A stretch of DNA of 20,587 bases from a virus: the IMG/VR virus record IMGVR_UViG_3300032132_000049, positions 1 through 20,587 of that record, one strand, 5' to 3'. Shown here piece by piece: positions 3,853 through 13,256 of this stretch. The notes under the pieces were generated by a model, which did not search any database, was not told the DNA's origin, and worked only from the letters and a program-made list of their open reading frames with translations. How positions within the stretch are numbered: the stretch's first letter is position 1; each line of letters begins with the position of its first letter. Both the position numbers and the translations under genes were made by a program.

Positions 3853-4031
3853 TCTTTATCTCTAAAGGGGCTGCATTCATCGTCACAATCTCTACACCAA
3901 AAAGAATCAACTGATTGAGCGTCCATCAATTCATTAGGGGTGAAAGGTCCATCCTCATTCATGTCCCCGTATATATGCCATAATTGTTCAATTTTGAATC
4001 CGTTACACTTATCACATTTCCATTTATTCAT
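3849..4031 (-). CDS. Small zinc-ribbon protein, 60 residues
   Basis: The frame is open to 4082, but the ATG at 4031 starts directly at the first zinc motif (MNKWKCDKCNGFKIEQLW) and overlaps the end of the upstream gene by eight bases, so it is preferred. CxxC at about residues 6-9 and CRDCDDEC at about 48-55 give a two-knuckle zinc-ribbon layout. Partner unknown; such proteins often bind nucleic acid or polymerase. The bases upstream of the ATG lie inside a 56-base segment that is duplicated at 5211-5266. Confidence 0.7.
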   Translation of the reverse strand: MNKWKCDKCNGFKIEQLWHIYGDMNEDGPFTPNELMDAQSVDSFWCRDCDDECSPFRDKE

Positions 4032-4191
4032 TAGATTTTCTCGTCCAATCATGTTCAGGATCAAAAGCCTCATCTGAATCATATTCCCCAGTGTATATAA
4101 TCAATTGACCGTCATTATCATACTCTAATGATGCATTAGGGAATAGGTTAGTAATGGTATCTAGAAGATGGTTATAGTCGTATTCTTTCAT
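4024..4191 (-). CDS. Small acidic protein with a duplicated C-terminal segment, 55 residues
   Basis: The ATG at 4191 follows TTAGGACTCACTA, the same ribosome-site block that precedes the gene at 4395. The product has a helix (EYDYNHLLDTITNLFPNASL), then a strand DNDGQLIIYTG. The final 17-18 residues (DSDEAFDPEHDWTRKSNE) are nearly identical to the end of the unrelated zinc-ribbon protein at 5192-5368. The DNA of that part (4028-4083) is a 55/56 match to 5211-5266. Function unknown. Confidence 0.7.
   Translation of the reverse strand: MKEYDYNHLLDTITNLFPNASLEYDNDGQLIIYTGEYDSDEAFDPEHDWTRKSNE
4028..4083. repeat. 56-base direct repeat, copy 1
   Basis: Matches 5211-5266 at 55 of 56 positions; the difference is A at 4077 against G at 5260. 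It encodes the shared EAFDPEHDWTRKSN tail in two otherwise different proteins. Such near-identity implies recent duplication or recombination. Confidence 0.9.
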
Positions 4192-4418: not shown

Positions 4419-5069
4419 CTAGTGTGAAAGGAATTTCACGGTTTTAGGGGTTGTCCAACACAAGCCACAATCAGCGCATGATTTTACCTTATTGGTTTGT
4501 TCGGGGCAGGTGAATGAGTTAGCATCCGATGACTCAATTACAGCATAGGACCAATTACTATCCAATTCAGGCTCACCACTCTTTCGAATAACGCAACGCT
4601 CATTGAATCGGTTATTCAGCAGGAAAAGAGCCTTACCAATTGAACTATCATGCTCGCGAGCAGTGTAGCCGAATAGAGCAAGCTTATCATACTTCAAAAG
4701 CATCTCTTGCCAGAATTCAACGTATGCTACACTATAAAAATCACCTAGAACGTGCAGCCTAATCACTATTCCCTCTTTATGCTTATTCAATAGCATAGGG
4801 ATCTCTTGTTCTAGCTTATCAATAAGGCCAACCGTATCAAAGCGATGAGCGAAAGGCATATTGTTACCATAACAATCCACCCAATGATGGCATGATGTAG
4901 GACAAGTTTCACGTTCTGTGAGAGTAAGCGCATATAAACGCTTTCCTTTCCATTTTTTAGAGGTTACTTTGAAACCTAGTTTTTTGTTAGTGGAGCCCTT
5001 TTTGAGGACTGAAAAATCATTCGGGGACTTGATCCCCTTTTGATAACGTGTAGAGATTAGGGTTTTCAT
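4419..5069 (-). CDS. Cysteine-rich Gp88-like phage protein
   Basis: This 216-residue protein carries ERETCPTSCHHWVDCYGNN (about 53-70) followed by MPFAHR. This resembles the TCP..C...CY(G/A) signature of the phage gene-product-88 family (mycobacteriophage Gp88 and relatives). It also has a strand-helix pattern VIRLHVLGDFYS, a late CPEQ, and a C-terminal CADCGLCW (about 198-205). The Cys clusters suggest a metal or iron-sulfur centre; the biochemical activity of the family is not known to me. It is the first gene of a leftward operon and its ATG is the predicted transcription start (TATACT ends six bases upstream), so it is probably translated from a leaderless mRNA. Confidence 0.75.
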   Translation of the reverse strand: MKTLISTRYQKGIKSPNDFSVLKKGSTNKKLGFKVTSKKWKGKRLYALTLTERETCPTSCHHWVDCYGNNMPFAHRFDTVGLIDKLEQEIPMLLNKHKEGIVIRLHVLGDFYSVAYVEFWQEMLLKYDKLALFGYTAREHDSSIGKALFLLNNRFNERCVIRKSGEPELDSNWSYAVIESSDANSFTCPEQTNKVKSCADCGLCWTTPKTVKFLSH

Positions 5070-5104: not shown

Positions 5105-5138
5105 GAATATTGTGCGAATTAGTTAGAGGGGGCTGTCA

Positions 5139-5185
5139 TAAGTGCTTACTGTTAAGGGACTTAGGGCGCTCGGCCCCGGCGGCCC
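5139..5185 (-). repeat. Intergenic cassette copy R1
   Basis: Plus-strand TAAGTGCTTACTGTTAAG, then GGACTTAGGG and a variant GC hairpin (GGGCGCTCGGCCCC), then GGCGGCCC. The left arm is degenerate (ATAAGT instead of CCTAAGT). It lies between the gene at 5192-5368 and the promoter of the 5069 gene; the TAAGTGC start is 58 bases from the -10 box. Confidence 0.85.
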
Positions 5186-5191
5186 TTTGCG

Positions 5192-5368
5192 TTATCCTAG
5201 CCAGTCTATATCATTAGATTTTCTCGTCCAATCATGTTCAGGATCAAAAGCCTCATCTGGATCATAAGGAGCTATCCCACACAACTCACAGACGCCGAGG
5301 ATATCGAGAGAGACGGTATGCCCAGCCGCATCACAATCAGGACAGATGAGATCTTTGTTGTTTTCCAT
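5192..5368 (-). CDS. Small zinc-ribbon protein with duplicated tail, 58 residues
   Basis: Starts MENNKDLICPDCDAAGH and has a second knuckle CELCG (about 27-31), giving a clear four-Cys zinc ribbon. Residues 36-52 repeat the EAFDPEHDWTRKSN tail of the protein at 4024-4191. The first five codons are shared with the unrelated protein at 8460-8645 (MENN). The ATG is six bases after TATAAT, so the mRNA is predicted leaderless. It is a single-gene unit between cassettes R1 and R2. Confidence 0.8.
   Translation of the reverse strand: MENNKDLICPDCDAAGHTVSLDILGVCELCGIAPYDPDEAFDPEHDWTRKSNDIDWLG
5211..5266. repeat. 56-base direct repeat, copy 2
   Basis: Partner of 4028-4083 with one mismatch; it encodes the shared C-terminal segment in the same reading frame. 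Confidence 0.9.
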
Positions 5369-5374
5369 GCCTGT

Positions 5375-5402
5375 ATTATACCATGCTCACAGAGGAATGC
5401 AA
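5375..5402 (-). promoter_or_regulatory. Leaderless promoter for 5368 gene
   Basis: TTGCAT (5402-5397), a 16-base spacer ending ATGG, TATAAT (5380-5375), ACAGGC, then ATG at 5368. This is an extended -10 with a fair -35, and the start codon is at the predicted +1. Confidence 0.85.
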
Positions 5403-5416
5403 GCACTATTTTATAT

Positions 5417-5465
5417 CCTAAGTGCTTACTGTTAAGGGACTTAGGATCGCCGCCCCGGCGGCCCG
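5417..5465 (-). repeat. Intergenic cassette copy R2 (variant GC hairpin)
   Basis: The palindrome CCTAAGT...ACTTAGG (5417-5445) is complete. The GC hairpin here is GCCGC-CCCG-GCGGC instead of GGGCC-TTC-GGCCC: a different sequence that keeps the fold. A GCCA/TGGC hairpin with a TTT loop follows at 5469-5479. Confidence 0.85.
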
Positions 5466-5554
5466 TATGCCATTTTGGCAGGAAGAACAGGCAGGCCCGT
5501 TTCAGGACCATTTACCCCCTTCCCATAGGGACGGCGACCTGTTCATAATTGTAT

Positions 5555-5637
5555 TGGTGGAGGTGCAGGGAATTGAACCCTGTTCCAAGAAAGTTCCCGT
5601 GTAGGGTATTCTAACCTGTCGAAACCAGATCACCCCC
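5555..5637 (-). ncRNA. tmRNA-like RNA lacking the tag-encoding domain
   Basis: Read on the minus strand this 83-base segment begins GGGGGTGATCTGGTTTCGAC and ends CACCTCCACCA. GGTTTCGAC (5626-5618) is the near-universal tmRNA D-loop signature. Bases 5637-5631 (GGGGGTG) pair with CACCTCC (5565-5559), seven base pairs including a G3-U70 wobble, the alanine identity element kept in tmRNA, with discriminator A and encoded CCA. The T-arm is CAGGG-TTCAATT-CCCTG (5582-5566). Between the D-like loop and the T-arm is only about 32 bases, foldable as AGAA/TTCT with an inner CCC-TACAC-GGG. A full tmRNA has over 250 bases here, with pseudoknots and a tag reading frame; these are absent. It does not fold as a normal tRNA (no standard anticodon stem or GG D-loop). 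It may be a minimal tmRNA, a decoy for SmpB or alanyl-tRNA synthetase, or a decayed tmRNA. Confidence 0.6.
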
Positions 5638-5713
5638 GAATGGTCTTGCTTCCCGAGGTTAGACCACCCTCGCTTTCTTTATACTCCGTTGGAATGACCT
5701 TCAGAGTTACCCT
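5638..5713 (-). other. 5' flank of the tmRNA-like RNA, with hairpin and weak -10
   Basis: Minus strand: GGAGTATAAAG, a possible -10 without a clear -35, lies about 28 bases upstream of a TGGTCT/AGACCA hairpin, which in turn directly precedes the RNA 5' end. An alternative CGAGG/CCTCG pairing overlaps this hairpin. The segment may be a precursor leader removed by processing, or the RNA may be read through from the 6007 promoter. No gene is seen here. Confidence 0.35.
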
Positions 5714-5974
5714 TTAGAATGTGAAAGGAATCCTGCCCATCTCAGCCGTGGGCTGAGTCGTGGGATGCGCCTCCGCTGCACCTTGATGTCGGCCCGTAGA
5801 CGGATCCACGGGAAGCTCACGACGTAGTTTGATGTAAAGGTCCAGAGCCTCGTGTACATTATCAGGGTGGGTATTGGTAAAGTAAAGCTCGCGGAATCGC
5901 TCGCCTGCCTCCATGCTACGCTGTTGAATGGTAGCCTCATGAGTGTCGGGTTGAAAAGTAGTTTGAGTAGTCAT
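5714..5974 (-). CDS. Unknown 86-residue protein with normal leader and ribosome site
   Basis: Starts MTTQTTFQPDTHEATIQQRS and ends EMGRIPFTF. The middle (MEAGERFRELYFTNTHPDNVHEALDLYIKLRREL) is helical, and the C-terminal third is Pro/Thr-rich and probably flexible. Unlike its neighbours it has AAAGGA at suitable spacing and a roughly 30-base leader after TATAAT, so it is the control case for the leaderless genes. Family unknown. The tmRNA-like RNA lies downstream on the same strand. Confidence 0.7.
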   Translation of the reverse strand: MTTQTTFQPDTHEATIQQRSMEAGERFRELYFTNTHPDNVHEALDLYIKLRRELPVDPSTGRHQGAAEAHPTTQPTAEMGRIPFTF

Positions 5975-6006
5975 AGTTGTCCTTTGTAAAGGGTTTCGAA
6001 GGGTGT

Positions 6007-6035
6007 ATTATACCACGCTAGGTGGCACTTGTCAA
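6007..6035 (-). promoter_or_regulatory. Consensus sigma-70 promoter with a 5' leader (5974 gene)
   Basis: TTGACA (6035-6030), exactly 17 bases, TATAAT (6012-6007) with TGG before it. Initiation leaves a leader of about 26-27 bases containing AAAGGA before the ATG at 5974. A CCACC/GGTGG-like partial dyad lies in the spacer. Confidence 0.9.
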
Positions 6036-6037
6036 GT

Positions 6038-6205
6038 TTATTCGCCGTAAAGATCCTCGATTTCATCGGGCTCAGAGCCTAGCTCATCTAGATCCTCACC
6101 ATGCCAGTAGTCCGTCTGGCGATCAAGTACTCCATCTTGGAATACCTCCTCGTTCTCCCAGTTGTCAACATCCGAACCCTCGTCGTAATCGTATTCATCC
6201 CACAT
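6038..6205 (-). CDS. Very acidic small protein, 55 residues
   Basis: Product MWDEYDYDEGSDVDNWENEE continuing to EIEDLYGE; roughly 40 percent Asp/Glu with many aromatics. This recalls DNA-mimic or host-inhibitor phage proteins, but that is inference. The ATG at 6205 is preceded by GAGAGGAAG at good spacing. Those bases lie within the five-codon leaderless frame 6225-6208, so ribosomes finishing that mini-frame could re-initiate here. Confidence 0.7.
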   Translation of the reverse strand: MWDEYDYDEGSDVDNWENEEVFQDGVLDRQTDYWHGEDLDELGSEPDEIEDLYGE

Positions 6206-6207
6206 GC

Positions 6208-6225
6208 TTACTTCCTCTCTTTCAT
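6208..6225 (-). CDS. Five-codon leaderless mini-frame MKERK
   Basis: The ATG at 6225 stands six bases after TATAAT, exactly where the leaderless genes of the other cassettes begin, but reads only MKERK then TAA. Its first ten bases match the start of the 9683 gene (ATGAAAGAGA). The real gene starts two bases after the stop. It may be a leader peptide, or the remnant of a cassette whose original gene was replaced. Confidence 0.5.
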   Translation of the reverse strand: MKERK

Positions 6226-6231
6226 GCCTGT

Positions 6232-6237
6232 ATTATA
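6232..6237 (-). promoter_or_regulatory. Extended -10 promoter, cassette R3
   Basis: TGTGGTATAAT then ACAGGC ATG. The best -35 at normal spacing is TAGCTT, which is poor; the TGG extension probably compensates. About 50 bases upstream are shared almost exactly with the 6954 promoter. Confidence 0.8.
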
Positions 6238-6285
6238 CCACACTGAGGGCCAAAAGCTACTACAAACCACAAAATACTTTCCGTC

Positions 6286-6330
6286 GTAAGTGCTTACTGT
6301 TAAGGGACTTAGGGCCTTCGGCCCCGGCCC
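6286..6330 (-). repeat. Intergenic cassette copy R3
   Basis: GTAAGTGCTTACTGTTAAG, GGACTTAGGG, then CCTTCGGCCCCGGCCC. The TAAGTGC start is 50 bases from the -10 box edge. The additional GCCA/TGGC hairpin found in other copies is missing here. Confidence 0.85.
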
Positions 6331-6334
6331 CTGC

Positions 6335-6580
6335 CTATTTCCTCTTTCCTAGCTTCTTATTGTAGTATGCTTTTATTTTCGGCTCTGTTATCTTGTTTAA
6401 CTTCCTATTGTAGTATGCTCTTATTTTCGGCTCTGTTATCTTGTTTAGCTGGCTATCATGTACCATTCTTAGTTGATAGGCTAATCCCTTTTCATCCATC
6501 TCGCAAAGTATTTCGATGGCTTTAAAAAGAGCGTCAAAAGGTGCCCTCTCTTCGTGCGTTAGCTTAAATTTATCGGTCAT
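6335..6580 (-). CDS. Unknown protein with a 16-residue tandem repeat, 81 residues
   Basis: A longer frame extends to 6625, but the ATG at 6580 (MTDKFKLTHEERAPFDALFK) overlaps the stop of the 26-residue gene upstream as TAATG and is preferred. The first half is a helical domain. The C-terminal part is a tandem duplication, LNKITEPKIRAYYNRK then LNKITEPKIKAYYNKK, ending LGKRK; the repeat is basic and may bind nucleic acid. At DNA level the unit is 48 bases (about 6350-6445) with few differences, so the duplication is recent. Family unknown. Confidence 0.7.
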   Translation of the reverse strand: MTDKFKLTHEERAPFDALFKAIEILCEMDEKGLAYQLRMVHDSQLNKITEPKIRAYYNRKLNKITEPKIKAYYNKKLGKRK

Positions 6581-6660
6581 TATAGCACCACCCAAACGAT
6601 TAGAGCCCACAGGGGGATAGAGCAAACGATTGCAATCATTGCACCTCTAAAGGCTTTCAT
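6580..6660 (-). CDS. 26-residue single-span membrane peptide
   Basis: MKAFRGAMIAIVCSIPLWAL followed by IVWVVL: a short basic N-terminus and one hydrophobic helix, so it should insert in the cytoplasmic membrane. AGGAAG lies just upstream of the ATG, and the stop overlaps the next ATG (TAATG). Such peptides are easily missed by gene callers; the tight overlaps on both sides support it as real. Confidence 0.55.
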   Translation of the reverse strand: MKAFRGAMIAIVCSIPLWALIVWVVL

Positions 6661-6736
6661 TTTTCTCTTCCTGTAGCTCTTGATCCTCGAAATATTCATC
6701 GAAGAAATTACTTAGAATCTCAATAAACTCATTCAT
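6647..6736 (-). CDS. 29-residue acidic peptide
   Basis: MNEFIEILSNFFDEYFEDQE then LQEEKNESL: a single amphipathic, highly acidic helix. The ATG at 6736 overlaps the stop of the upstream zinc-ribbon gene by eight bases, and its 3' end overlaps the membrane peptide gene by 14 bases. Evidence is composition and the overlapping arrangement only. Confidence 0.5.
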   Translation of the reverse strand: MNEFIEILSNFFDEYFEDQELQEEKNESL

Positions 6737-6947
6737 CGTCGCCACCGAATACGCTATCCTGGCATTTCTGGCACATGCCTGAAATGGTGTATTCTTTGAT
6801 TGAAAGCTCATCTCGGAACGAATCCGCAGTTATGCCAATCATATCACAGGTCATGCACTCACCGTTAGCGATGGTGCGAACACGGGACTTGCCCATCCAA
6901 CTATCCAGGGCAGCTTCAACTTGAAGACTTTTGTTTGTCGCTTTCAT
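6729..6947 (-). CDS. Zinc-ribbon-like small protein, 72 residues
   Basis: Residues 31-34 CMTC and 59-62 CQKC form a four-Cys zinc site. The segment ITADSFRDELSIKEYTISGM between them is well ordered (strand and helix) and of a kind I associate with conserved small phage proteins of unknown function. It is the first gene of a four-gene operon (6947 to 6335). The ATG is six bases after TATAAT, so the mRNA is predicted leaderless. Confidence 0.8.
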   Translation of the reverse strand: MKATNKSLQVEAALDSWMGKSRVRTIANGECMTCDMIGITADSFRDELSIKEYTISGMCQKCQDSVFGGDDE

Positions 6948-6953
6948 GCCTGT

Positions 6954-6959
6954 ATTATA
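6954..6959 (-). promoter_or_regulatory. Extended -10 promoter, cassette R4
   Basis: GAGTATGGTATAAT, ACAGGC, ATG at 6947. The -35 is weak (TAGCTT at 16 bases). The upstream block GCTTCTAGCCCT is shared with the 9690 promoter. Confidence 0.85.
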
Positions 6960-7006
6960 CCATACTCAGGGCTAGAAGCTACTACAAACCACAAAATACT
7001 TTCAGT

Positions 7007-7066
7007 CCTAAGTGCTTGCTATTAAGGGACTTAGGGCCTTCGGCCCCGGCGGCCCGCCAAAATGGC
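7007..7066 (-). repeat. Intergenic cassette copy R4
   Basis: Full palindrome CCTAAGT...ACTTAGG (7007-7035), GC hairpin GGGCC-TTC-GGCCC, GGCGGCCC, and a GCCA-AAA-TGGC hairpin at 7056-7066. It follows the structured RNA region in the direction of transcription and may close that transcript. Confidence 0.85.
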
Positions 7067-7069
7067 AGG

Positions 7070-7328
7070 TGACGAGGTAGGGCGTAGGCTTCAAAGCTGA
7101 TATTGCGCTCCACCTACCCCTACTAACGACCCGTCTAGCCGCGCCTTAAAGTACCGTAGACCTCAGGCGAGTAGTCTACCGTGGCGATTATTTAACGCAA
7201 TTCAGTGCGCTTCAATCATGGGCCTACCATGGCCCACTACCCGACGAATTACTTCGGGGTGGAATAGGAGGGGAGAGGATAGCCTTTGCAGTTTCAATGC
7301 CTTACGCCAGCTATTTATTCCTCTCCCC
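7070..7328 (-). ncRNA. Candidate structured RNA of about 260 bases, family unknown
   Basis: No reading frame on either strand. Read leftward it begins with GGGGAGAGG (7328-7320), which pairs perfectly with CCTCTCCCC (7278-7270), continued by ATAGC/GCTAT. Further local helices: CCCGA/TCGGG (7240-7258), GGGCC/GGCCC (7220-7235), CGCA/TGCG (7196-7209), GTAGAC/GTCTAC with a 12-base loop (7156-7179). A long-range GTAGGG...TAGG / CCTA...CCCTAC helix spans 7077-7123. A GATACT box with ACAGGG (7337-7326) echoes the cassette promoters (TATAATACAGGC) and would place the 5' end within the first stem. It does not show signature motifs of RNase P, tmRNA, 6S RNA, hammerhead or group I intron. It lies between gene 7340-7549 and cassette R4. 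Confidence 0.55.
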
Positions 7329-7331
7329 TGT

Positions 7332-7337
7332 AGTATC
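7332..7337 (-). promoter_or_regulatory. Possible -10 for the structured RNA
   Basis: GATACTACAGGGG on the minus strand aligns with TATAATACAGGC of the cassette promoters. It overlaps the last bases before the stop codon of the 7549 gene. No convincing -35. Confidence 0.35.
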
Positions 7338-7339
7338 AT

Positions 7340-7549
7340 CTAGCCCATATAGCGATGATTCACACCGTTAGGGGTCACGAATTGACGGCTGTTCTTATAG
7401 TGCGCATTCCACGCTGAACGGCATTCGTCACAAGTGCCCGTATAGGTGTATTCCTGCTGTTTAGTGTCAAAAATAGTATAAATAGAACCGAAACGGAACA
7501 TAACAGCGTTTTGGTTCGAACGAACCACAGACATGATATCAGAGAACAT
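7340..7549 (-). CDS. Unknown 69-residue protein with one CxxC
   Basis: Starts MFSDIMSVVRSNQNAVMFRF and has GTCDECRSAWNAHYKN (about 38-53), then a short basic tail. One CxxC only, so a full zinc site would need a dimer or the nearby His residues. The ATG at 7549 has TAAAGGA upstream at normal spacing, so unlike its neighbours it is translated with a ribosome site. It is the second gene after 7961, separated by a strong hairpin. Confidence 0.65.
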   Translation of the reverse strand: MFSDIMSVVRSNQNAVMFRFGSIYTIFDTKQQEYTYTGTCDECRSAWNAHYKNSRQFVTPNGVNHRYMG

Positions 7550-7571
7550 AAAAATCCTTTATAAAGAGATG

Positions 7572-7598
7572 TAGGGGAGGACCAATTGCCCTCCCCTA
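7572..7598. promoter_or_regulatory. Strong intergenic hairpin without a T-run
   Basis: TAGGGGAGG (7572-7580) pairs perfectly with CCTCCCCTA (7590-7598) across a nine-base loop. It sits between two genes of one leftward unit. Without a following T-tract it is more likely an mRNA stability or processing element, or an attenuator, than a terminator. Confidence 0.6.
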
Positions 7599-7607
7599 TA
7601 GGGTAGC

Positions 7608-7961
7608 CTAGTTGGCTGTAAGGCTGGCGACTACTTGAGCAATCTGCTCGTCAATTTCCGCCAGTCGGTCTTGTGTTTCAGTGACGGAGCTTTCAGCGTC
7701 CATCTTGAGACGGTTGATTTTGAAGATCCATTCCTCATGTGAGGCGAGGCGACTAGAAGCGGATTGGGGACCATCCCCTAGAATCTTCTTAGCCTCGCGG
7801 TATTGCTTCTGCACATCGTTGCGCTCGGTAACGAGCTTGGCGACTGCGGGGTTATCTTGAGCTTCTGCCTTGGCCTGTTTCACGCGCAGCTTTTCGAGGC
7901 GTGCCTCGGTTTCAGCGATGATCTGGGCAGGCGTGCGTTGCGTTCGTTTCTTGTTTTCCAT
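7608..7961 (-). CDS. Coiled-coil protein, 117 residues
   Basis: MENKKRTQRTPAQIIAETEA, then long heptad-like helices rich in Ala, Glu, Lys and Arg up to residue 60, and a second helical stretch from about 73 to the end (LASHEEWIFKINRL ... LAEIDEQIAQVV), with a Gly/Pro/Ser break at about 62-70. This predicts an antiparallel helical hairpin or coiled coil. No enzyme motif. The ATG is six bases after a perfect consensus promoter, so the mRNA is leaderless. The first three codons (MEN) agree with two other cassette genes. Confidence 0.75.
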   Translation of the reverse strand: MENKKRTQRTPAQIIAETEARLEKLRVKQAKAEAQDNPAVAKLVTERNDVQKQYREAKKILGDGPQSASSRLASHEEWIFKINRLKMDAESSVTETQDRLAEIDEQIAQVVASLTAN

Positions 7962-7967
7962 GTTGGT

Positions 7968-7996
7968 ATTATAACCTATTTAGGGGCTGCTGTCAA
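7968..7996 (-). promoter_or_regulatory. Perfect sigma-70 promoter placed directly before an ATG
   Basis: TTGACA (7996-7991), 17-base spacer, TATAAT (7973-7968), ACCAAC, ATG at 7961. The TGA stop of the upstream gene (7995-7993) lies inside the -35 hexamer. This is the best evidence that these are true promoters and that the transcript starts at the AUG. Confidence 0.92.
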
Positions 7997-8142
7997 CCTT
8001 TATCTTGTGAATTGAAGTCGGATTCTATCTGGACCGTACACTCGGGGCATAGCTTGGAGCCTACAAAGGGCTGGATTGAGTACCAGAACACGGTAGGATT
8101 GCCGCAGGAGTCGCATATCGTAGTCTTTTCTGTCGTTTCCAT
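7993..8142 (-). CDS. Small zinc-ribbon protein, 49 residues
   Basis: METTEKTTICDSCGNPTVFW and CPEC (about 32-35) form a classical zinc ribbon. The first nine codons closely match those of the unrelated protein at 9683 (MKETEKTTI). An upstream extension of the frame to 8313 would read through the cassette and is rejected. The ATG is six bases after TATAAT. Its stop codon is part of the next promoter's -35 box. Confidence 0.8.
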   Translation of the reverse strand: METTEKTTICDSCGNPTVFWYSIQPFVGSKLCPECTVQIESDFNSQDKG

Positions 8143-8148
8143 GCCTGT

Positions 8149-8176
8149 ATTATACCATACTGAGGGCCAATTGCAA
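8149..8176 (-). promoter_or_regulatory. Leaderless promoter, cassette R5
   Basis: TTGCAA (8176-8171), 16-base spacer ending ATGG, TATAAT (8154-8149), ACAGGC, ATG at 8142. Confidence 0.87.
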
Positions 8177-8201
8177 ATGTAAAATGGATTTATCTTTTGT
8201 C

Positions 8202-8278
8202 GTAAGTGCTTGCTGTTAAGGGACTTAGGGCCTTCGGCCCCGGCCCTCCTGCCAAAATGGCAGGGGCCTAAGCCCCTG
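8202..8278 (-). repeat. Intergenic cassette copy R5 with two overlapping hairpins
   Basis: GTAAGTGCTTGCTGTTAAG, GGACTTAGGG, CCTTCGGCCCCGGCC (to 8246). Then the perfect hairpin CCTGCCA-AAA-TGGCAGG (8248-8264), and CAGGGGC-CTAA-GCCCCTG (8261-8278). The last two share CAGG and cannot form fully at the same time. Confidence 0.85.
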
Positions 8279-8284
8279 CTCTGC

Positions 8285-8470
8285 TTATTCCACTGTCCTA
8301 GCCTTTTGCTCATCGGTCAAGTAATATACCATCTCCTCCAATTTAGGATCCCAAGTCATACTGAGTTGGTCCTTCTGAGCCATATCAAGAAGCATCTGGC
8401 TGAAGATATCATTATATTCTTCTTCAGTCCCACACATTTCGAGAAGACGTTCCCATACTTTATTCTGCAT
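8285..8470 (-). CDS. Unknown 61-residue acidic helical protein
   Basis: MQNKVWERLLEMCGTEEEYN onward; Glu/Asp/Met-rich, predicted mostly helical, no recognised motif. The ATG at 8470 lies 11 bases inside the upstream gene, with AAAGGCGG upstream serving as ribosome site, so it is the second gene of a two-gene unit. It ends just before the hairpins of cassette R5. Confidence 0.65.
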   Translation of the reverse strand: MQNKVWERLLEMCGTEEEYNDIFSQMLLDMAQKDQLSMTWDPKLEEMVYYLTDEQKARTVE

Positions 8471-8645
8471 TCAATGCCGCCTTTTCCATCTCGTAATCAA
8501 TAGCTTCTTGGATGTCGTAAAGGTCATGACCATCCCAAAACATATCATCGACCAGTTGGGCATAATCGGGGTAGTCTTCAAAGTGGGCCATGCAACCGTC
8601 AATGGTGAGGGAGTAGTGTGCGGGCAGTTCGTTGTTGTTTTCCAT
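8460..8645 (-). CDS. Unknown 61-residue acidic protein, leaderless
   Basis: MENNNELPAHYSLTIDGCMA then an Asp/Tyr-rich stretch (HFEDYPDYAQLVDDMFWDGHDLYDIQEAI). Net charge strongly negative. The first 15 bases of the gene match those of the zinc-ribbon gene at 5368. The ATG is six bases after TATAAT. No family recognised. Confidence 0.7.
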   Translation of the reverse strand: MENNNELPAHYSLTIDGCMAHFEDYPDYAQLVDDMFWDGHDLYDIQEAIDYEMEKAALNAE

Positions 8646-8651
8646 GCCTGT

Positions 8652-8657
8652 ATTATA
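8652..8657 (-). promoter_or_regulatory. Extended -10 promoter, cassette R6
   Basis: CAGTATGGTATAAT, ACAGGC, ATG at 8645. No good -35 at 16-18 bases; the TGG extension is present. Confidence 0.83.
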
Positions 8658-8703
8658 CCATACTGAGGGCTGAGATCCAGAACCATCTCGAAATACTTTC
8701 GAT

Positions 8704-8766
8704 CCTAAGTGCTTGCTGTTAAGGGACTTAGGGCCTTCGGCCCCGGCGGCCTGTCAATCTGGCAGG
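8704..8766 (-). repeat. Intergenic cassette copy R6
   Basis: Full palindrome CCTAAGT...ACTTAGG, GGGCC-TTC-GGCCC, GGCGGCC, and CCTGTCA-ATC-TGGCAGG (8750-8766), whose left arm contains the stop codon of the gene at 8754. The T in CCTGTCA keeps pairing as a wobble on the plus-sense RNA but gives a C-A mismatch on the minus-sense RNA. Confidence 0.85.
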
Positions 8767-9023
8767 TGGTCCGAGTGCCACCTACAGGAAATACATTTTA
8801 CGGGTATTGCGGCCTCGTTTACGTCGGTTGTTTCCCTCATAAACGTCCCGCACTCCTCGCAGCGGATAGCGAACAAAGGCTTAGCAGTTGATCCCATAAG
8901 TGAGTTTTCCGTCCTTGTGAAAGTGCAAAGCTGGCGAAGTGCCCCAAGGCGTCGCATCATGCTATCAATCTCTTTGAGGGCCTCATTCATTGAGTCCTCG
9001 ATGTATTCCTTAGAGGATCTCAT
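8754..9023 (-). CDS. Zinc-ribbon protein with N-terminal helix, 89 residues
   Basis: The ATG at 9023 overlaps the upstream stop (TGATG); a GTG at 9032 would add three residues. The N-terminal half (MRSSKEYIEDSMNEALKEID and on to about 35) is a charged helix. The C-terminal half has CEEC (about 56-59) and CISC (about 79-82), a zinc ribbon, and ends in WHSDHLPD. It is the third gene of the 9683 operon. A nucleic-acid-binding role is plausible but not shown. Confidence 0.72.
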   Translation of the reverse strand: MRSSKEYIEDSMNEALKEIDSMMRRLGALRQLCTFTRTENSLMGSTAKPLFAIRCEECGTFMRETTDVNEAAIPVKCISCRWHSDHLPD

Positions 9024-9334
9024 CACACGCACCCCATGATAGAAGCCTTGCCATAGTTGATATCCCGCTCTACCTTCATGCCCATAGGTCCCACAATAGC
9101 CTCAAGCTCGTTGAGCGTGAAGTAGCCAAGCTCACTCTCTAGACCCTCGACAAGACCGAAGAATGTCCAATCACCCCCAGGGGCCTCTTGAGGCGAACCC
9201 TCATAAACGTACCAAGTCCAGTTAGCATCTGGAGTAAAGAATTTCACAATAACCTCTTTGTGCTCTGCTATGATGGGCTCAGTAGCATACAAGGGGGGCA
9301 TGATTTCAGCGATTTGTTTAGTCATCAATTGCAT
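9023..9334 (-). CDS. DUF2958 family protein, 103 residues
   Basis: The core (PPLYATE; KFFTPDANWTWYVYEGS; DWTFFGLVEGLESELGYFTL; LNELEAIVGPMGMKVERDIN) matches the conserved order of DUF2958 (PF11171), a small domain found in phages, plasmids and mobile elements, with no established activity. The frame runs up to 9466, but the upstream gene ends at 9336, so the ATG at 9334 (MQLMTKQ) or the one at 9325 (MTKQ) is the likely start. Length agrees with the family. Second gene of the 9683 operon. Confidence 0.85.
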   Translation of the reverse strand: MQLMTKQIAEIMPPLYATEPIIAEHKEVIVKFFTPDANWTWYVYEGSPQEAPGGDWTFFGLVEGLESELGYFTLNELEAIVGPMGMKVERDINYGKASIMGCV

Positions 9335-9335
9335 G

Positions 9336-9683
9336 TTAGTAAGCGCTTTCACAGAGTTGAAGTACGGTATCCCAATCGTTATCCTGGACAGCCTCGATGA
9401 TAGCACCGAGACGATACACAGGAACGTAGGCAGCGACTTGATCGGGGAGGCAAACGAACTTGTCATCCTCGTTCATCACAGCCACTTCCATGGTGGCTGT
9501 GGGGCCGAGATCGTCGCGGTAGCTATCAGTCTCGCGTGCAGCCAGTTGGTAATTGTCACAGTAATGTCCATATCCAAAGCCTACGCTGAGAGTGTGGCCC
9601 CCGAGGTTCTCGATCTGAAAACCCCCAAAGCCAGGAAGGATGGAGCGCATGGGCTTGATCGTTGTCTTTTCTGTCTCTTTCAT
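9336..9683 (-). CDS. Unknown 115-residue protein, leaderless
   Basis: MKETEKTTIKPMRSILPGFG then a Gly/aromatic-rich beta-like region (GFQIENLGGHTLSVGFGYGHY, about 21-41). A mixed C-terminal half follows (AAYVPVYRLGAIIEAVQDND). No family is recognised. The first nine codons match the unrelated zinc-ribbon gene at 8142. First gene of a three-gene operon with DUF2958 and a zinc-ribbon protein. The ATG is six bases after TATAAT. Confidence 0.75.
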   Translation of the reverse strand: MKETEKTTIKPMRSILPGFGGFQIENLGGHTLSVGFGYGHYCDNYQLAARETDSYRDDLGPTATMEVAVMNEDDKFVCLPDQVAAYVPVYRLGAIIEAVQDNDWDTVLQLCESAY

Positions 9684-9689
9684 GCCTGT

Positions 9690-9695
9690 ATTATA
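9690..9695 (-). promoter_or_regulatory. Extended -10 promoter, cassette R7
   Basis: CAGTATGGTATAAT, ACAGGC, ATG at 9683. The upstream block is nearly the same as that of the 6954 promoter. Confidence 0.85.
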
Positions 9696-9742
9696 CCATA
9701 CTGAGGGCTAGAAGCTACTACAATCTCGAAATACTTTCAGTC

Positions 9743-9804
9743 GTAAGTGCTTGCTATTAAGGGACTTAGGGCCTTCGGCCCCGGCCCCGTCCCAAAAATG
9801 GGAC
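9743..9804 (-). repeat. Intergenic cassette copy R7
   Basis: GTAAGTGCTTGCTATTAAG, GGACTTAGGG, CCTTCGGCCCCGGCC, then GTCCCA-AAAA-TGGGAC (9789-9804). This hairpin replaces the GCCA/TGGC pairs of other copies with different pairs, so the fold and not the sequence is kept. The stop codon of the 9804 gene abuts it. Confidence 0.87.
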
Positions 9805-11304: not shown

Positions 11305-11513
11305 GACGTAAAGATGTTATGAAAGCTAATCGAGAAGCCCGTCTTAAAGGAGGTCGGCGTGGAGGTAGTAAAACTACTAGACGTAACCTTGGTATTACAG
11401 AAGAAAGTACACCACTAGAAGTAGTTGAAGAACCCCCAATCGAAGAAAAGGTAGTCGTAAAAAAAGCAAAAGTAGCTAAGAAAAGCTCATTCTGGAAAGG
11501 TAAAGGCAAGTAA
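11301..11513 (+). CDS. Small basic protein, 70 residues
   Basis: MRRKDVMKANREARLKGGRR is highly basic, followed by an acidic middle (EESTPLEVVEEPPIEEK) and a Lys-rich end (VVVKKAKVAKKSSFWKGKGK). Low complexity and charge-segregated, as in some internal head or DNA-binding proteins. Its stop overlaps the ATG of the next gene (TAATG). Function unknown. Confidence 0.6.
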   Translation: MRRKDVMKANREARLKGGRRGGSKTTRRNLGITEESTPLEVVEEPPIEEKVVVKKAKVAKKSSFWKGKGK

Positions 11514-12382
11514 TGGCAAAAACAGTAAAAACAAGTTCTCTTCCCACAAGTAAAGCGGGTACTTCTACAGCACCGATGACAGTATCGGGCATGATACCTA
11601 CCTCTGGGGTCGTTACTGATAGTTCTGGTCCTTGGATGATTGAAGAACAAACTCTAACCATAGATTATACAAGAGTTCCTCATTACGCAGCTTCTTCTGT
11701 TACTCACAGTTTGGCTACCCCCTCTAGAGGATATCGAGTAGCAGCTACTATTCTAAATGTAAATGTAGAGGCAACGTATAGTAAACAGAAATCATATGAT
11801 CAGTTTACTACTTCAAGTTGGACTCAACCTCAAACGTTCATCTACGATACCCAGGACAATGATAACTACAATGCTAGCTATGGAGACACTGGTGCTTCTG
11901 CATTAGGTCCAAACGGAACGATCAATACTCTACAAAAGTGGTACCATAGGCGTGCTTGGGTTTCTAGTATTGATGTTGAAGAAACACAGAATTGCGTTGG
12001 AACACGCCACTACTTCGCAGGATTTAGTGGAATGAATACTTTTGGAGGGTTAGTAGCCACTCCTGCGGAAGATGGGTTGGCAAATTGGGGTGAGTTCGGT
12101 AGATTTACTCCTAAAAGAAACAAGGCTCATACCTTCATGCGAGGTAGTCAAACTGAGCAAAAAAATACCTTATACACTTTAGCTGGACCTTACTCTACTT
12201 CCTTAGAAACAGGTTCACGAATACAACAAACCATTGATCTTATTGGTACCATAATTAGACAATCATCTTTATACGGTATTGGACCTGCCCTAACAGCAGG
12301 TGTTACAACTTCAGAAGGTATTTTTGCACAAGCTGATGTAGGATGCTCTTCCTACTCTTCCTCCAGACATGAGTGGAACTAG
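11513..12382 (+). CDS. Structural-type protein, paralogue A, 289 residues
   Basis: AAAGG precedes the ATG. The protein is beta-rich and Ser/Thr/Tyr-rich. It shares with the next gene an ordered set of blocks: SGMIPxSG; SGPWMIEEQ-LTI-YTRVPxY; TTSSWTQPQ-F-Y; SYGxTGxSALGP-GTI; KWYHRRAW; GEFGRxxPK; GPY-TS-ET; and an end GC-SY-xRH-W. This suggests a duplicated virion protein (capsid decoration, neck or tail component), but no known family is recognised. It lies upstream of the terminase gene in the late-type rightward region. Confidence 0.75.
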   Translation: MAKTVKTSSLPTSKAGTSTAPMTVSGMIPTSGVVTDSSGPWMIEEQTLTIDYTRVPHYAASSVTHSLATPSRGYRVAATILNVNVEATYSKQKSYDQFTTSSWTQPQTFIYDTQDNDNYNASYGDTGASALGPNGTINTLQKWYHRRAWVSSIDVEETQNCVGTRHYFAGFSGMNTFGGLVATPAEDGLANWGEFGRFTPKRNKAHTFMRGSQTEQKNTLYTLAGPYSTSLETGSRIQQTIDLIGTIIRQSSLYGIGPALTAGVTTSEGIFAQADVGCSSYSSSRHEWN

Positions 12383-12401: not shown

Positions 12402-13256
12402 ATGGCTACCCCCCTTACAGGATTAAACAGTGTTAACGCTTCAGGTATGATTCCTGCGTCTGGAACTGCACAAGTAGGTGCTACTTCTGGTCCTTGGATG
12501 ATCGAAGAGCAAGAACTCACTATTTACTATACAAGAGTTCCCTCTTATAAAGTTTTTAATGATGTCTTTGGTCTGTCATCTGTCTCAAATACTACTAAAG
12601 TTGAATGGACTTACATTCAAAACAGAGTTGAAGCAGAGTACACAAAATCATACTCTACTGACCTTTACTCTACTTCAAGCTGGACTCAGCCACAAAAGTT
12701 TGAGTACCACCCAGTAAGCTCAGATGCTTATGGAAATTCTTATGGAAATACTGGTGTATCTGCTTTAGGTCCTGTAGGGACTATCACAACTAAAGACAAG
12801 TGGTACCATAGGCGTGCTTGGGATGCTGCTGTAGACTTTCAAGTAGCAGAAGATTGTGAAGCTACTACGCATTACTTTAGCCAGCTTCCTCAATTAACTA
12901 ATATTGGTGGTGTTACACAGATTCAGGTTAATCCCGCTATTGATGGAATGTCTTATTTTGGTGAGTTTGGTAGATTAGACCCTAAACCCTTCGCTAACCA
13001 CACCTTTGTAGACGGGGATTCTTATTACCACAGAGGGGATCAAGAATATATCATCTTTGGCCCATACAACACTAGTGCAGAAACTCCTTTAGCTATTCAG
13101 ACCTACGTAGATGGTATAGGTTCTAAGGTGGAACAACTTGATATGTTCGGTGTAGACGGAGGAGAAGGTATCCTACCAAATCCCGCACAACCTAACGTAG
13201 CTTTTAGAAATACAGGCTGCCAAAGTTATGACAATAACCGACACGATTGGACATAA
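12402..13256 (+). CDS. Structural-type protein, paralogue B, 284 residues
   Basis: AAAGGA lies 11 bases before the ATG at 12402. It has the same block order as the preceding gene; the WYHRRAW segment is also almost identical in DNA (AAGTGGTACCATAGGCGTGC, at 11935 and 12799). Differences concentrate in surface-like loops, for example at about 55-70 and 165-180. Likely a virion component that diverged after tandem duplication. Function unknown. Confidence 0.75.
   Translation: MATPLTGLNSVNASGMIPASGTAQVGATSGPWMIEEQELTIYYTRVPSYKVFNDVFGLSSVSNTTKVEWTYIQNRVEAEYTKSYSTDLYSTSSWTQPQKFEYHPVSSDAYGNSYGNTGVSALGPVGTITTKDKWYHRRAWDAAVDFQVAEDCEATTHYFSQLPQLTNIGGVTQIQVNPAIDGMSYFGEFGRLDPKPFANHTFVDGDSYYHRGDQEYIIFGPYNTSAETPLAIQTYVDGIGSKVEQLDMFGVDGGEGILPNPAQPNVAFRNTGCQSYDNNRHDWT

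Follow-up and report, generated by a model that had tools for sequence, protein, structure and literature searches.

A tagless tmRNA-like RNA of a T4-like phage and its relatives in many unrelated phages

Trans-translation is near-universal among bacteria, and the locus studied here raises the question of what a phage-encoded RNA with the tRNA-like half of tmRNA and no tag reading frame is, and what it might do to this pathway. The analysed stretch of 20,587 nt (IMG/VR record IMGVR_UViG_3300032132_000049, below called the window) represents part of the genome of a T4-like myovirus, with a portal gene (E 1.8e-84) and a T4-type terminase. A reading made before from the letters of the window (the sequence-only reading) had placed at 5555-5637 a tmRNA-like RNA with a 7-bp acceptor stem containing G3:U70, a T arm and an encoded CCA, in which one arm of about 32 bases replaced the mRNA-like part. 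The coordinates proved exact, the strand is minus, and all of these elements are present in the sequence GGGGGUGAUCUGGUUUCGACAGGUUAGAAUACCCUACACGGGAACUUUCUUGGAACAGGGUUCAAUUCCCUGCACCUCCACCA, which is the minus-strand reading of 5637-5555 (Table 1). The acceptor stem has seven of seven pairs including G3:U70, and the T stem of 5 bp closes a loop of 7 bases. An arm does take the place of the mRNA-like part, but about 35 bases, counting the GGAA linker, rather than 32 separate GGUUUCGAC from the T stem; these bases fold into a weak P2-like stem with about four pairs and a 3-bp hairpin, CCC-UACAC-GGG.

Table 1. Features at and around the tagless RNA (positions are those of the window)
Feature	Position	Strand	Basis or remark
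Tagless tmRNA-like RNA, tRNA-like domain (TLD) only, 83 nt	5555..5637	-	RF00023 71.5 bits; custom model R1 59.7 bits, E 2.4e-12
Acceptor stem 5′ strand GGGGGUG, with G3 of the alanine identity pair	5631..5637	-	7/7 pairs with 5559-5565
GGUUUCGAC, D-arm analogue of tmRNA	5618..5626	-	Sequence; alignment to tmRNA consensus
P2-like arm, about 35 nt including GGAA linker, in place of the mRNA-like domain	5583..5617	-	Sequence, folding, R1; covaries in relatives
T arm CAGGG-UUCAAUU-CCCUG	5566..5582	-	Sequence and RF00023 alignment
Acceptor 3′ strand CACCUCC (U70), A73, encoded CCA	5555..5565	-	Sequence and RF00023 alignment
86-aa ORF (ORF86), directly upstream of the RNA	5714..5974	-	L066 and L127 have homologues at this place
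Sigma-70-like promoter, TTGACA-17-TGnTATAAT	6007..6035	-	12/12, consensus match only
gp88-like gene, downstream of the RNA	4419..5069	-	PF17338, E 2.9e-7; L066 and L127 have homologues on the downstream side of the RNA

The comparison with the Rfam tmRNA model RF00023 gave 71.5 bits (E 2.6e-26; curated cut-off 47 bits), and the alignment ran end to end over model positions 1-374, skipping about 300 consensus positions that make up the tag domain. The covariance model R1, which was built without the window RNA, also matched it, as its sole match in the window; a custom model had been suggested as a check, and R1 finds both this RNA and the RNAs of cultured phages. The mRNA-like domain with a tag reading frame, which defines a functional tmRNA, is missing, and 35 nt stand in its place. 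An ordinary tRNA was rejected, as neither a tRNA nor a tmRNA was called by ARAGORN, no tRNA was called with Rfam, and a cloverleaf with an anticodon arm is lacking. Hence, the window RNA is confirmed as the tRNA-like domain of tmRNA without a tag.

Folded alone, the window RNA was only mildly more stable than its shuffled versions (z -1.7), and the case for its structure therefore rests on its relatives. In 83 viral RNAs less than 90% identical, found with a search pattern that left the acceptor stem and the arm unconstrained, acceptor pairs 4-6 were paired in 248 of 249 cases, where about 50% would be expected, T-stem pairs 1-2 in 164 of 166, and the first P2 pair in 72 of 72 versus 41% expected. 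In a gap-free subset of 14 sequences (A2), which was the basis of the covariation test and of R1, 98.3% of cells were paired, and the covariation was 0.597 versus 0.120 in shuffled alignments, with none of 500 shuffles as high, while sliding controls reached at most 0.098. In the consensus, the acceptor stem is followed by GGUUUCGAC and by P2, which encloses a AAAGCCGCAYGCGGA inner hairpin; GGAC, the T arm and ACC(A) come next. The loop of some members reads AAAGCCGAAGUGCA, which resembles the start of the tag domain of ordinary tmRNA, and this likeness suggests that the tagless RNAs may have arisen by internal deletion. Among the relatives in the matches listed, G3:U70 was kept in 132 of 135 and A73 in 133 of 135, while a G-U pair at 3:70 was present in only 10 of 248 tRNAs from the same loci; the conservation of this pair would fit alanylation of the RNA. 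The encoding of CCA agreed with that of local tRNAs in 219 cases (95 and 124) and disagreed in 29, as expected for tRNA-type maturation. The conservation of C74 was dropped as a special feature, because tRNAs at the same loci share it. In many pairs of related loci the RNA was mostly better conserved than its own 250-base flanks, which, together with the kept G3:U70 and A73 and the CCA concordance, makes it unlikely that the tagless RNA is a relic.

The distribution of such RNAs was surveyed in IMG/VR with two patterns (GG(U/A)UUCGAC-N15-45-GGGUUCRANUCCC), one of which gave at least 120 loci and the other 20. Among the matches listed, at least 135 IMG/VR RNAs, with the window RNA counted, had a sound acceptor stem and arm. 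Their spacer lengths showed a sharp peak at 56-60 and a minimal class at 40-47. Over the next 31 spacer lengths scanned, 7 of 33 matches were structurally sound, and the other 26, in which acceptor pairing was missing, were dropped as chance matches; in 85,000 bacterial and archaeal genomes the same pattern gave 8 sound matches out of 23, and 15 were dropped on the same ground. The 151 sound loci among the matches listed fall into 69 mutually unrelated groups by nucleotide similarity. These data show that tagless TLD RNAs form a large, overlooked family, which is common in many unrelated phages.

The RNA is present but unannotated in the cultured Streptomyces phages LuckySocke, BRock and pSt2308, in Stenotrophomonas phage Jojan60 and in a Pseudonocardia phage-plasmid. 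With R1, the tagless RNAs of the cultured carriers reach 76-100 bits, and the tested tagged tmRNAs or tRNAs 37 bits or less. The tagless genes are missed in annotation because ARAGORN calls few of them, although many exceed the Rfam tmRNA cut-off; its tmRNA calls at two loci (L061 and L118) were disbelieved, as they share only the 3′ end and ignore the well-paired 5′ half of the tagless RNA. The Pseudonocardia example, which contains GGCUUCGAC, lies at 6001-6082 of locus L335 on the 27-kb plasmid unnamed3 of Pseudonocardia broussonetiae, and it is under the Rfam cut-off yet scores 81 bits with R1. The plasmid is likely a phage-plasmid, since it carries integrase and HK97 gp10 genes.

A TLD-only phage tmRNA is not new in kind. 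The sequence-only reading knew of no described phage RNA like this one, but the tmRNA of Mycobacterium phage DS6A (tmID 11587) is given as "TLD only" (PMC4131195), and the window RNA, which is phage-encoded and consists of the TLD with little else, corresponds to that definition. Both are tRNA-like domains of tmRNA without a tag reading frame; DS6A, compared here by its description, is a singleton, while the window RNA, from a T4-like myovirus, is 83 nt long and has a P2-like arm, and the tagless family spans about 69 unrelated groups instead of one phage. Among 97,179 standard tmRNAs only nine were without a CDS (PMC11915505), and the breadth of the kind among phages is, as far as we found, undescribed in the literature. 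The phage RNAs share with standard bacterial tmRNA (RF00023) the acceptor stem with G3:U70, GG(A/U)UUCGAC, the T arm and the GGA(C/A) that precedes it, but are without the mRNA-like domain, tag, resume codon and pseudoknots, and are about 300 positions shorter. The tag was also lost from the mitochondrial and plastid tmRNAs of jakobids, oomycetes and Mallomonadaceae (RF02544); of these the mitochondrial ones are mostly permuted, in contrast to the viral RNAs, which are in one piece with a covarying closed arm. Other phages, including Bongo, phi38:1 and BE cluster Streptomyces phages, likewise carry ssrA, but with a tag domain, and the tagged tmRNAs of Moby, XacN1 and Melnitz are permuted. In TLD fragments engineered for structural work (PDB 2CZJ, 4ABR/4V8Q; PMC3929946, PMC8012679) the tmRNA ends are also joined by a closed stem-loop; those are laboratory-made and the phage RNAs natural, and the minimal class L010 has the same UUCG loop as 2CZJ. 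Such fragments bind SmpB, with which the TLD mimics a tRNA, and enter ribosomes together with EF-Tu (PMC3929946, PMC8012679).

A search for partner genes showed no SmpB in any of 49 carrier records, which are mostly IMG/VR fragments, or in the five cultured carriers, of which the four phages are complete, while the control detected it in 10 of 10 bacteria. No tagged tmRNA, standard or permuted, was above cut-off in the 49 records, by which a split or permuted tmRNA with its tag elsewhere was rejected, and in whole-genome searches of the cultured phage carriers the tagless RNA was the sole standard tmRNA match above cut-off.

In the window, the promoter upstream of ORF86 (Table 1) is likely to drive both ORF86 and the RNA. 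The order of ORF86 homologue, RNA and gp88 homologue is conserved at loci L066 and L127; the portal and terminase of L066 are 73-75% identical to those of the window, and promoter-like stretches lie at matching places in the two. The contexts of the family vary widely, from tRNA arrays through early cassettes to structural operons; a tRNA lies within 1 kb at 28 of 151 loci, and the LuckySocke RNA is inside a tRNA array. The largest group consists of L003 and its relatives (45 loci); there the RNA is flanked by the genes for the head maturation protease and the major capsid protein, and in L003 it occupies 7631-7712, about 120 nt ahead of the capsid start. From this position, the RNA of the group may be produced very abundantly during late infection.

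We consider it reasonably probable that the window RNA is a phage-encoded, tag-free TLD which interferes with host trans-translation; in this best reading it would be alanylated and bind SmpB, acting as a decoy or a dead-end substrate. A DS6A-like molecule strongly inhibits E. coli tmRNA whether or not it can be charged (Mao et al. 2009, as summarized in PMC4131195 and PMC11915505), perhaps by titrating SmpB (Mao et al. 2009, as summarized in PMC4131195), and the decoy or regulator of ribosome rescue proposed earlier agrees with these published accounts. The RNA would be transcribed together with early genes and undergo tRNA-type trimming, the host alanyl-tRNA synthetase would charge it via G3:U70, as the conservation of this pair suggests, and host SmpB and EF-Tu would bind it, given that no carrier record showed an SmpB of its own. 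It could then titrate SmpB, or enter stalled ribosomes and take the nascent chain onto its alanine; the ribosomes would then have no resume codon, so that host tmRNA could not tag and release them, for which the TLD-only RNA offers a published precedent. The near-absolute conservation of G3:U70 exceeds the needs of a pure SmpB sponge, since inhibition is reported also without charging, at least in the summaries of that work, and it thus favors a charged action on the ribosome. On the other side, other phages carry tagged tmRNAs, and the window copy has a weak P2.

The same invariance, by which charging appears selected, keeps as the main rival a productive rescue without a tag, in which the alanyl-TLD with SmpB would take the nascent chain and free the ribosome or append at least one alanine, so that phage proteins would escape the proteolytic tag. 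SmpB with a TLD fragment gave template-free polyalanine in vitro (Shimizu and Ueda 2006, as described in PMC3929946), and tag-free mitochondrial tmRNAs persist alongside SmpB and are thought to be still helpful (PMC11915505). However, a release step is not known, partners with peptidyl-hydrolase function are rare (1 of 49 records has an RF-1 domain), and TLD-only RNA is described as inhibitory in the account of PMC4131195, so that we regard such rescue as rather unlikely. Less specific to the window, there is about an even chance that dozens of unrelated phage lineages use an alanyl-TLD RNA acting via host SmpB on stalled ribosomes, either against rescue, as a counter-defence, or for a template-free, alanine-tailing rescue that bypasses the proteolytic tag.

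A processing mark, at which RNase P and 3′ trimming would split neighboring messages, could account for the tRNA-type 3′ ends and for the position between protease and capsid genes in the L003 group, but neither G3:U70 nor the tmRNA-specific UUCGAC is necessary for processing and the contexts differ widely, which leaves it very unlikely. A relic had also been considered by the sequence-only reading, and a related idea is an attachment site with which the phage would integrate into the tmRNA gene of its host, since cluster K1 mycobacteriophages, Adephagia among them, use the tmRNA 3′ part as attP (PMC10865867), and in 3 of 49 carriers (L128, L059 and L040) an integrase lies about 3.5 kb or less from the RNA. 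Such attP copies contain the 3′ half only, and that of Adephagia has no Rfam match, while here the two halves coevolve, the RNA mostly exceeds its flanks in identity between related loci, and 44 of 49 records are without a tyrosine integrase (present in five). An attP in ssrA explains the cluster K1 matches; the window RNA has both halves, and no integrase was found among the scanned window genes. For the whole family this reading is refuted by the covariation seen in the alignments, the conserved synteny also speaks against a relic, and we give either form very little credence. An RNA that draws off alanine or alanyl-tRNA synthetase, instead of SmpB, would agree with the near-invariant G3:U70 and A73, but a minimal acceptor helix would be sufficient for it, yet the UUCGAC D-arm analogue and the TLD layout are kept, and inhibition without charging is reported in the account of PMC4131195; it seems the least probable of all, and a regulator of the synthetase, beyond the role of substrate, found no support.

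Until now, a single phage was known with a TLD-only RNA, which was regarded as a curiosity. The present data add a new example and greatly enlarge the distribution of this barely known kind; if such RNAs are so common, interfering with ribosome rescue, or taking it over, would be a frequent phage strategy.

Several further observations were made at these loci. The contigs of L128, L059 and L040 look temperate, and there the tagless RNA, which is near a tyrosine integrase, could double as an attachment site. Apparently tagless BLAST matches in Moby, XacN1, DLP_6, QDWS359, Rb1, PaMx31, CcrSC and Tunturi_4 turned out to be permuted tagged tmRNAs, and those in Bongo and phi38:1 full tmRNAs. Of the permuted genes, those at loci L203, L206, L207, L208, L214, L145 and L205 belong to seven of these phages: no feature is annotated at the match in Moby, XacN1, DLP_6, Rb1, PaMx31 and CcrSC, and a hypothetical ORF is annotated across the permuted tmRNA of QDWS359. 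In Tunturiibacter phage Tunturi_4 (L210), a release-factor-like gene with an RF-1 domain (218-979) lies directly upstream of the permuted tmRNA, and the two possibly form a phage ribosome-rescue module. The window itself contains at 5135-9790 a small-gene array with seven copies of a hairpin element of about 51 nt and eight promoter-like stretches on the minus strand, with TGGTATAATAC just before ATG; these repeats resemble the mobile promoter and stem-loop cassettes of T4-type phages. Two 56-nt copies, 98% identical (4028-4083 and 5211-5266), lie on either side of the gp88-like gene and, as judged from their sequence, represent a recent local duplication. Two tandem ORFs of about 285 aa (11513-12382 and 12402-13256), the first of which had no match in Pfam or PHROG, are apparently paralogous.
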